In this document: positions 19,312-62,483 of the stretch, one piece after another
Layout of the letters: each line of letters starts with the position of its first letter
Position numbering within the stretch: the first letter of the stretch is position 1
Source of the DNA: Spirochaetae bacterium HGW-Spirochaetae-3
Lineage (GTDB): Bacteria > Spirochaetota > Spirochaetia > Treponematales > UBA12059
DNA length: 64,000 bases
Direction: 5' to 3'
Assembly (NCBI GenBank): GCA_002839315.1
Contig: PGXV01000001.1
Coordinates: 310,001 to 374,000, forward strand
Notes under the pieces: model-generated
The model's database searches: none
Told to the model about the DNA's origin: nothing
The model's input: the letters and a program-made list of their open reading frames with translations, nothing else
Position numbers and translations under genes: made by a program

Positions 19312-19317
19312 CGCCGG

Positions 19318-19347
19318 ATTATAGGAGTCCATGGCGAGGCTTGTCAA
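19318..19347 (-). promoter_or_regulatory. Consensus promoter of the FGE-like/smpB/rsmD operon, leaderless
   Basis: Reading the minus strand: -35 TTGACA (19347-19342, perfect), 18-base spacer, -10 TATAAT (19323-19318, perfect), then CCGGCG and the ATG at 19311. The expected +1 coincides with the A of the start codon, and there is no Shine-Dalgarno. Its -35 overlaps the opposing lepB promoter's -35. Confidence 0.8.
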
Positions 19348-19369
19348 CGCGATCGAAAGATGGTAGCCT
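19341..19369 (+). promoter_or_regulatory. Promoter of the lepB-lepB-hemW-pdxY operon, leaderless
   Basis: -35 TTGTCA (19341-19346), 17-base spacer, -10 TAGCCT (19364-19369), 7 bases, then ATG at 19377. No Shine-Dalgarno. The -35 shares five bases with the perfect TTGACA of the divergent promoter, so only one polymerase can bind at a time. Confidence 0.55.
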
Positions 19370-19376
19370 CGTTTCG

Positions 19377-57440: not shown

Positions 57441-58456
57441 CGGTTCTGGAGCGCGTCCAGAACCGTCTTCACCGCGTCGTCGAGCCCCGCGGCGTTCGCG
57501 GTCAGGGTCTTCCCGGGTATCCGGGAATACTCGTAGCTGGCCGGTAGCGCTATGCCTTCGACCGCCGGGTACATCCAGTTGGTCGTAGGCAGGGCCGACT
57601 GGAATTCCGGCGTAAGCATGAAATCGATGAAGGCCTCCGCGGCCTTGCGATGCCTCGCCTTTGCGACGATTCCAGCGCCTTCTATCTGGATAGGATGGCC
57701 TTCCGGGAATTCGAGGGCCTTGTAACGGCCCGCCGTCTCGTATTCAGCGTGATAGGCGGCGCTCGTCGTGTACGATATCACGAGCGGAGCCTCTCCCGCG
57801 GTAAACAGCCCGTAACCGGTATCCCAGCCCGGCGACATCGTCAGTATGGACGGACTAAGGCGTTTCCAATAGTCGGAGAGACCATCGCCGTATATAGCCG
57901 CCGTCCAGGCTACGAAACCGAGGCCCGGCGTCGATGTACGCGGATCCATGAGTATCAGTTTCTTGGCGTATTCGGGCCCGGTAAGGGCCTCGAGGGAAGC
58001 GGGCGGAACGGCGAGCTTCTCGGAGTCCCACATGATGCAGAAGCTACTCCAGTCGTACGGAGTAAGCCGCCACTCGTCGTCGAGGACGAGCTTCCGCGGT
58101 ATCGTCTCTCTGCCCCGGGGGGCGTACGGCGCCAATACGCCGGCCGACAGGGCCTTGGGCAGCAGGTTGCCGTCTATGCCTATGATGACGTCGGCTATCG
58201 GCTTCTTCTTCTCGTCTATGGCCTTGGCGAGCACCTGGCCGGCGTCTCCCGGCACGACGAGCTCCACCTTTATGCCGGTCGCGGCCTCGAAGGCGGGGAT
58301 GACGATAGGGCCTGGTCCCCATTCGCTGGCGAACGAGTCGTAGGCGTATATGACGAGCTGGGCTTCGTCCTTCTTGACGCATGACGAAGACAGGGCGACG
58401 AGCGCGGCGAACAAAACCGCGAGTCCCCCCTTGATGGAAACGGGACGAGTGCGCAT
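57437..58456 (-). CDS. thiB: Thiamine ABC transporter substrate-binding lipoprotein ThiB-like
   Basis: 339 residues. Lipobox LSSSC (C26). Mature domain begins LVIYAYDSFASEWGPG and contains KVELVVPGDAGQVL, DVIIGIDGNLL, DWSSFCIMWD and NWMYPAV, all characteristic of ThiB/TbpA. It captures thiamine or its phosphates at the outer face. First gene of thiB-thiP-thiQ, directly after a TPP riboswitch whose 3' conserved segment contains the Shine-Dalgarno. Confidence 0.92.
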   Translation of the reverse strand: MRTRPVSIKGGLAVLFAALVALSSSCVKKDEAQLVIYAYDSFASEWGPGPIVIPAFEAATGIKVELVVPGDAGQVLAKAIDEKKKPIADVIIGIDGNLLPKALSAGVLAPYAPRGRETIPRKLVLDDEWRLTPYDWSSFCIMWDSEKLAVPPASLEALTGPEYAKKLILMDPRTSTPGLGFVAWTAAIYGDGLSDYWKRLSPSILTMSPGWDTGYGLFTAGEAPLVISYTTSAAYHAEYETAGRYKALEFPEGHPIQIEGAGIVAKARHRKAAEAFIDFMLTPEFQSALPTTNWMYPAVEGIALPASYEYSRIPGKTLTANAAGLDDAVKTVLDALQNR

Positions 58457-58537
58457 GGTACTCCCTCCGCCGGTACTAACCGGATCAGGTTCATCGGGTC
58501 TGTTCTCAGACGGCTTTAGTCCCTACGGAACCGTACC
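58457..58537 (-). promoter_or_regulatory. TPP riboswitch (thi-box)
   Basis: Minus strand carries the conserved thi-box core: CTGAGA then ACCC, TGAACCTGATC, a CCGG/CCGG hairpin and GCGGAGGGA at the 3' side. Flanking GGTAC (58537-58533) and GTACC (58461-58457) can close P1. The GGAGGGA is the Shine-Dalgarno of thiB, 5-6 bases from its ATG, so TPP binding should directly hide it and block translation. Confidence 0.92.
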
Positions 58538-58554
58538 GCCACCCCGGCGCGCTC

Positions 58555-58584
58555 ACCATACGCCCGCTCGCGTCGTCGGGTCAA
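58555..58584 (-). promoter_or_regulatory. Promoter of the thiamine transporter operon
   Basis: Minus strand: -35 TTGACC (58584-58579), 18-base spacer, -10 TATGGT (58560-58555). Expected start near 58548, placing the riboswitch at the very 5' end of the transcript. Confidence 0.65.
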
Positions 58585-58604: not shown

Positions 58605-59870
58605 TCAGCCGACGAGGCTCAGCCACGCCGTGCCTATAGCGAGCGTGAGTACCGTTATAGGAAGCCCGGCCTTGAGATAGTCCATGAAACCGAGCCTCGC
58701 GCCGCGGCCCGCGGCGCCCTCGGCGACGATCAGGTTGGCGACCGAGCCTATGAGCGTCAGGTTGCCGGCGAAGGTGCTCGCCATCGCGAGTAGCAGCCAC
58801 GCGGCTTTCGGGTCGGTAGCGCCCGACGCTAGCGGAGAGAGTATCATCACGGCCGGTACGTTCGAGACGAGGTTGGATACGGCGACGGTCGCCGCCGAGA
58901 ATAGCCATGGCGACGCTGACGCCCCGTTCAGGACGGTACGCTCTAGCCACGCGAACGCGGCGGTGCGCGATACGGCGTCAGTGATGACGAAGAGCCCCGC
59001 GAAAAATACCAGCAGGTTGAAGTCGACGCCGGAGAACAGCCGCTCGGACTTGATCCTTGAGACGAGCATGAACGAGGCCGACGCGAGCGCGGCGAGAACG
59101 ACGGGCGCGCCAGCGAGGAATGCCGCGAGCATCGCCGCGATGGCGACGCAACTCTTTGCGACGAGGGCGCGATCGATCCTCACGGCGCCCATCACGTTGG
59201 CGCTAGAAATGGCGGCGGCGGCGGTACGGTCGTCCGCGACCGACCTTGCGTCCTTGCTACGCCGGAATTCCTTAGGGAAAACCATGACGATGACGAGCCA
59301 GCATACGCCGAGCCCTATCAGGGAAGGAGGACCGATACGCGAGGCGAACTCGACGAACGGGACGCCGCTCCTTTGCCCGATCAACATGTTCTGCGGGTTC
59401 CCTATGATCGTGGCCGCCGATCCGACGTTGGCGGCGGTCGCCGTGGCGACGAGGTACGGCACGGGGTCGCGCCTCGCGCGGAGGCTCGTCTCCGCGACGA
59501 CCGGAGCGAGCACCAGGCACATCGTATCGTTGAGGAAGATAGCAGACAGGATGCCGGCGATCGCTACGATGGCGGCCAGGAATGCTCGCGGGTACCCGGC
59601 GAGGCCGGACAGCCGCGCCGCGACCAGGTCGAGGAGCCCCGAGATGCGTATGGATGAAACGAGGAGCATCATCGATAGAAGAAGGGCGATAGTGCCCATG
59701 TCGATCGACGCCAGCGCGTCGCCAAGAGGGATGGCTCCGATAAGGACGAGGCAAGTCGCCGCGGTACACGCGATACCCGCTCGGTTCATGCGCAGGCCGG
59801 GGACGCGGCCGGCGGCTATCGCGGCTATGCCGGCGACGAGCAGGAGATCGGTCAATACTTCCTTCAACAT
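58605..59870 (-). CDS. ArsB/NhaD-type ion transporter
   Basis: 421 residues with about eleven or twelve membrane helices. IT superfamily features: NDTMCLVLAPVV in the first half, ATAANVGSAATIIGNPQNMLIG as a re-entrant signature, and NLVSNVPAVMIL with FAGNLTLIGSVANLIVAE in the second. This repeat pattern is shared by arsenite (ArsB), Na+/H+ (NhaD) and citrate/dicarboxylate carriers. Which ion it carries cannot be told. Own leaderless promoter, divergent from the helicase gene. Confidence 0.82.
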   Translation of the reverse strand: MLKEVLTDLLLVAGIAAIAAGRVPGLRMNRAGIACTAATCLVLIGAIPLGDALASIDMGTIALLLSMMLLVSSIRISGLLDLVAARLSGLAGYPRAFLAAIVAIAGILSAIFLNDTMCLVLAPVVAETSLRARRDPVPYLVATATAANVGSAATIIGNPQNMLIGQRSGVPFVEFASRIGPPSLIGLGVCWLVIVMVFPKEFRRSKDARSVADDRTAAAAISSANVMGAVRIDRALVAKSCVAIAAMLAAFLAGAPVVLAALASASFMLVSRIKSERLFSGVDFNLLVFFAGLFVITDAVSRTAAFAWLERTVLNGASASPWLFSAATVAVSNLVSNVPAVMILSPLASGATDPKAAWLLLAMASTFAGNLTLIGSVANLIVAEGAAGRGARLGFMDYLKAGLPITVLTLAIGTAWLSLVG

Positions 59871-59876
59871 GCCGGG

Positions 59877-59906
59877 AGTATATCTAAAGCGGGGGTCCTT
59901 TGATAA
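59877..59906 (-). promoter_or_regulatory. Leaderless promoter of the ion transporter
   Basis: Minus strand: -35 TTATCA (59906-59901), 18-base spacer, -10 TATACT (59882-59877), CCCGGC, ATG at 59870. No Shine-Dalgarno. The -35 overlaps the helicase promoter's -35. Confidence 0.6.
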
Positions 59907-59927
59907 TCGCTCCGTTTCGACTACAAT
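59900..59927 (+). promoter_or_regulatory. Leaderless promoter of the DEAH helicase
   Basis: -35 TTGATA (59900-59905), 16-base spacer, -10 TACAAT (59922-59927), GGGATC, ATG at 59934. No properly spaced Shine-Dalgarno. Confidence 0.6.
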
Positions 59928-59933
59928 GGGATC

Positions 59934-62483
<2,550 letters not shown>

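Follow-up and report, generated by a model that had tools for sequence, protein, structure and literature searches.

The question raised by this locus was whether a short gap between two divergent genes represents a recurring compact module, in which one -35 region couples two leaderless genes, or two ordinary promoters packed into little space. The window (the whole stretch of 64,000 nucleotides analysed) corresponds to positions 310001–374000 of contig 11 in a 3.88 Mb genome of 18 contigs. Among named genomes, those nearest by its helicase were Spirochaetes and Spirochaetales metagenome genomes; therefore, the genome was assigned to Spirochaetota. The best NCBIfam match of the helicase was TIGR01967 (E = 2.6e-171), which lies under that profile's curated cut-off, and the protein is shorter than the HrpA profile. 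The relevant features of the window are as follows.

19312–19376, unstranded: 65-bp divergent gap between a signal peptidase S26 gene (plus strand, from 19377) and an FGE-sulfatase/PEGA protein gene (minus strand), with a shared TTGTCAA
57437–58456, minus strand: thiB, with a TPP riboswitch upstream (58445–58556, minus strand; RF00059, 57.6 bits)
58605–59870, minus strand: CitMHS/ArsB-type ion transporter, 421 aa, PF03600
59871–59933, unstranded: 63-bp divergent intergenic gap, with ATGs at 59870 (minus) and 59934 (plus)
59877–59882, minus strand: predicted transporter promoter -10, TATACT, 6 nt before the ATG; predicted start site 59870
59900–59905, plus strand: predicted hrpA promoter -35, TTGATA; lies within TTTGATAA, which does not vary among eight orthologous gaps
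59901–59906, minus strand: predicted transporter promoter -35, TTATCA, 4/6; overlaps the hrpA -35 by 5 bases
59922–59927, plus strand: predicted hrpA promoter -10, TACAAT, 6 nt before the ATG; predicted start site at the A of the ATG at 59934
59934–62483, plus strand: hrpA-type DEAH-box RNA helicase, 849 aa

The original prediction placed two divergent promoters in the 63-bp gap, with 6 nt between -10 and ATG on each side, and the boxes were found as claimed. On the plus strand, the order is TTGATA, a 16-bp spacer, TACAAT, 6 bases and ATG. On the minus strand, it is TTATCA, an 18-bp spacer, TATACT, 6 bases and ATG. TTATCA is a weak -35, matching four of the six consensus bases. By the usual sigma70 geometry, both predicted start sites are the A of each ATG. 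At this GC content, a -35 with at least four of six matches at one of five spacings arises with a 13% chance per side. This rate favors a reading by chance, in which at most one of the promoters is real and the symmetry arose by accident, but both -10 boxes and the -35 are conserved across species, and we consider that reading very improbable.

The comparison between species used an alignment of eight orthologous gaps. One comes from a more distant relative (L045), and the others represent seven of the eight genus members compared (the window's genome included). TTTGATAA and TACAAT were identical in all eight gaps, whereas the 15 bases of plus-strand spacer between them were 46% identical; since the gaps had been found via CTTTGATAA and TACAAT, the identity of the boxes is partly due to selection. 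The remaining congener (G006, locus L046) lacks TTTGATAA and CTTTGATAA and has TATAAT-N6-ATG. All six aligned species that possess the transporter retain the minus -10 (TATACT or TATAAT), at 17–18 bp from the shared -35 and 6–7 nt from the ATG, and the minus spacer of these species was 47% identical. The central -35 region proposed to be common to both divergent leaderless promoters, with hexamers overlapping by five bases, held up in congeners. Where the boxes lie, how they are spaced and that they persisted while the spacers diverged can all be read from the sequences themselves. Such conservation supports a function of the predicted boxes more than it does chance. For the hrpA promoter, the chance reading was ruled out by cross-species conservation.

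In two loci, L126 and L127, the transporter was not found, and the divergent neighbour of hrpA was thiB. CTTTGATAA persists in both despite the absent transporter; therefore, the element is retained at least for hrpA. Judged from these alignments, TTTGATAA is kept mainly for hrpA, as its predicted -35, and the putative transporter promoter uses the other strand. Two more distant relatives (L048 and L072) carry CTAGGATAA at the place of TTTGATAA, as expected for a drifting -35.

TTTGATAA exceeds a -35 hexamer, and an extra factor may bind there. A putative transcription-factor binding site that regulates both genes from the gap centre would account for eight invariant bases, which is longer than a -35 hexamer, and for the occurrence of CTTTGATAA 16 times in the genome versus 4 times for the reversed pattern. 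However, TTTGATAA lies 16 bp from the -10, exactly where a -35 belongs, the CTAGGATAA variants of L048 and L072 fit -35 drift, and 5 of the 16 CTTTGATAA copies are on one contig (C5). Regulation from such a site is unlikely.

Leaderless expression was examined in 864 kb of the genome. TA[TC]ANT peaked 6–8 nt before ATG (34, 28 and 23 occurrences vs about 9–21 at other distances), and no such peak was observed before GTG or TTG starts in the same 864 kb. At hrpA, the -10 places the predicted +1 at the start codon, and no Shine–Dalgarno sequence precedes it. Among the 43 spirochaete hrpA loci with an aligned start codon, 38 had TANNNT 5–8 nt before the ATG (24 at exactly 6), and a Shine–Dalgarno-like motif was present in one. 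A further 25 loci, mostly from Treponema, had a start a few codons upstream; most of them have a Shine–Dalgarno sequence, and 3 of the 25 have TATAAT or TATACT 6 nt before the ATG. In many of the Shine–Dalgarno-led loci, an apparent coding frame reaches the hrpA start, so leaderless initiation may accompany a promoter of hrpA's own. For most of the Spirochaetia covered (loci L041–L120), these upstream sequences predict a leaderless hrpA. Leptospira is known to produce leaderless mRNAs (PMC5243855), and such mRNAs are predicted in Spirochaetes (PMC3160421). The literature was also searched for a connection of HrpA with leaderless mRNA, and nothing usable emerged.

The original prediction further held that the same geometry occurs twice in the window, at unrelated gene pairs. 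The other pair it had in mind was most likely the gap at 19312–19376. The layout there is the same, and the gap is conserved in five congeners; the plus -10 is TAGCCT, which is weak and lies 7 rather than 6 bases from the ATG. The 17-bp plus spacer of this second pair, ACGCGANCGAAAGATGG, varies at one position only across six species, and a similar sequence is present in two further genera. Its conservation exceeds the needs of promoter boxes, and a putative extra binding site is possible.

The claim drawn from the two gaps was that of a recurring compact divergent module. In its full form, the lineage would employ gaps of one set length, about 64 bp, again and again, and a single shared, symmetrical -35 would couple two leaderless genes. 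Statistics were based on 1.66 Mb of stretches (43% of the genome) and on whole-genome pattern searches. Genes were called by a simple coding-score script, and 183 divergent pairs with gaps of 20–400 bp were used. Full leaderless promoters were found on 21 plus and 20 minus sides of these pairs, versus 2.1 and 1.1 under a Markov-1 (dinucleotide) null, an excess that also speaks for the predicted promoters being more than chance. Both sides were leaderless in 4 of the 183 pairs, versus 2.3 expected from independent sides. A shared or overlapping -35 was present in three double-leaderless pairs, at 59871–59933, 19312–19376 and C13:127917, with gaps of 63, 65 and 66 bp, respectively. Among the ten gaps of 60–70 bp, 3 minus and 5 plus sides were leaderless. 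As single sides are already so often leaderless at this length, 1.5 double cases are expected, and three were seen; these are small numbers. The -35 is shared because two promoters of about 34 bp must share it in a gap of about 64 bp. Three such gaps in 43% of the genome, all with a -35 offset of -1, speak for a module, but the double-leaderless pairs agree with independent side rates within small numbers, and the offset is merely the register of best agreement between TTGACA and its complement. Other shared -35 matches in this genome (C4, C16 and C18) lie between divergent frames and have a leader of about 20–60 nt on at least one side, which also argues against a module.

Gap length was compared for the transporter–hrpA pair. 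It is 62–65 bp in close relatives and 47, 100, 114 or 191 bp elsewhere (among these other relatives, the transporter start of L109 is provisional). Thus, compactness is a state of the close relatives and no fixed design.

A family-wide scan gave a similar outcome. Two -10 boxes around a symmetrical TTGNCAA were found at 39 sites in 21 of 23 family genomes, versus 3 sites with the centre TTCNGAA, which would favor a module, as would the apparent conservation of the 19312–19376 pair and of G000:C4:97123 in several genera. A one-sided control, in which one -10 was mirrored and a single promoter kept, gave 46 matches; about ten of these are two-sided as well. The excess is therefore due to TTGNCAA being a good -35, not to pairing; the apparent tenfold enrichment of a two-sided promoter pattern vanishes when one-sided promoters serve as the control. 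Inspection of the site sequences assigned about fifteen of the 39 to two orthologous loci (the 19312–19376 pair, and C4:97123 together with its relatives). The idea of a recurring compact divergent module was not borne out: three cases stand against 1.5 expected and 39 sites against 46 in the control, and the gap length of a gene pair is not conserved. The layout was not more frequent than independent promoters would make it, and the scan for further gaps with a shared -35 revealed essentially no excess beyond chance, the outcome that the original prediction itself had named as counting against it. A reused module is very unlikely. It was rejected after gene calls with the Markov null, gap bins, whole-genome patterns and the two pattern controls.

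Other divergent gaps were also observed. At L016:6986–7032 (G000:C4:106986–107032), a YjbQ-family gene and a divergent radical SAM gene are separated by 45 bp that contain the inverted pair AGTATAGC...GCTATACT, with both -10 boxes 6 nt from the ATG. Each -10 sits at the expected -35 position of the opposite promoter, and G001:C269 and G004:C105 show this 45-bp spacing too. At L182 (G000:C4:97123–97175), TTGCCAA is shared by a divergent pair, neither gene of which has a confident family match; most congeners conserve it, as do, apparently, two further genera.

Very probably, the hrpA/transporter gap holds two ordinary sigma70-type leaderless promoters placed back to back, with overlapping -35s, in the smallest space that holds both. 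The case is real and conserved, and it is of a known type: ordinary promoter packing in a short gap. Transcription would begin at the A of each ATG, and both mRNAs would be leaderless and undergo leaderless translation. As TTGATA and TTATCA on opposite strands overlap by five bases, RNA polymerase would occupy the site in one direction at a time, and polymerases would be mutually exclusive at the shared -35, as their footprint leads one to expect. Neither a dedicated module nor a regulator would be needed. It is highly improbable that the shared -35 is a one-bit switch, in which one sigma-binding site imposes exclusive and anti-correlated firing on two leaderless genes, selected at both the hrpA/transporter and the signal peptidase/FGE-PEGA pairs.

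The packed promoters provide a clean, conserved spirochaete example in which two leaderless promoters have a -35 in common, and the results suggest leaderless hrpA genes across a broad phylogenetic range of spirochaetes. In known leaderless genes, a TANNNT -10 lies about 12 bp upstream of the start codon (PMC3160421; start-site map of Leptospira interrogans, PMC5243855). The genes studied here resemble them in that the -10 ends 6–8 nt before the ATG, there is no Shine–Dalgarno sequence, and the phylum is the same. They differ in that two lie back to back in one gap, and in that their start sites are predicted, whereas those in Leptospira interrogans were mapped. Overlapping divergent promoters such as those of plasmid pLS20 (PMC4207663) likewise involve divergent genes with overlapping promoter DNA; unlike there, no regulator or DNA looping was seen or would be required at hrpA/transporter. 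Bacterial bidirectional promoters share a symmetrical -10, with start sites 7–25 bp apart (PMC10268837), and polymerases compete noticeably in them only if one direction has been strengthened (PMC12825309). The hrpA/transporter gap shares a -35 instead; its -10 boxes do not overlap reciprocally, and 64 bp separate its predicted start sites (59870 and 59934). Like bidirectional promoters (PMC10268837; PMC12825309), it has one DNA element read on both strands, with polymerase exclusion expected. By this analogy, the gap may work similarly to bidirectional promoters, though it is no member of that class.
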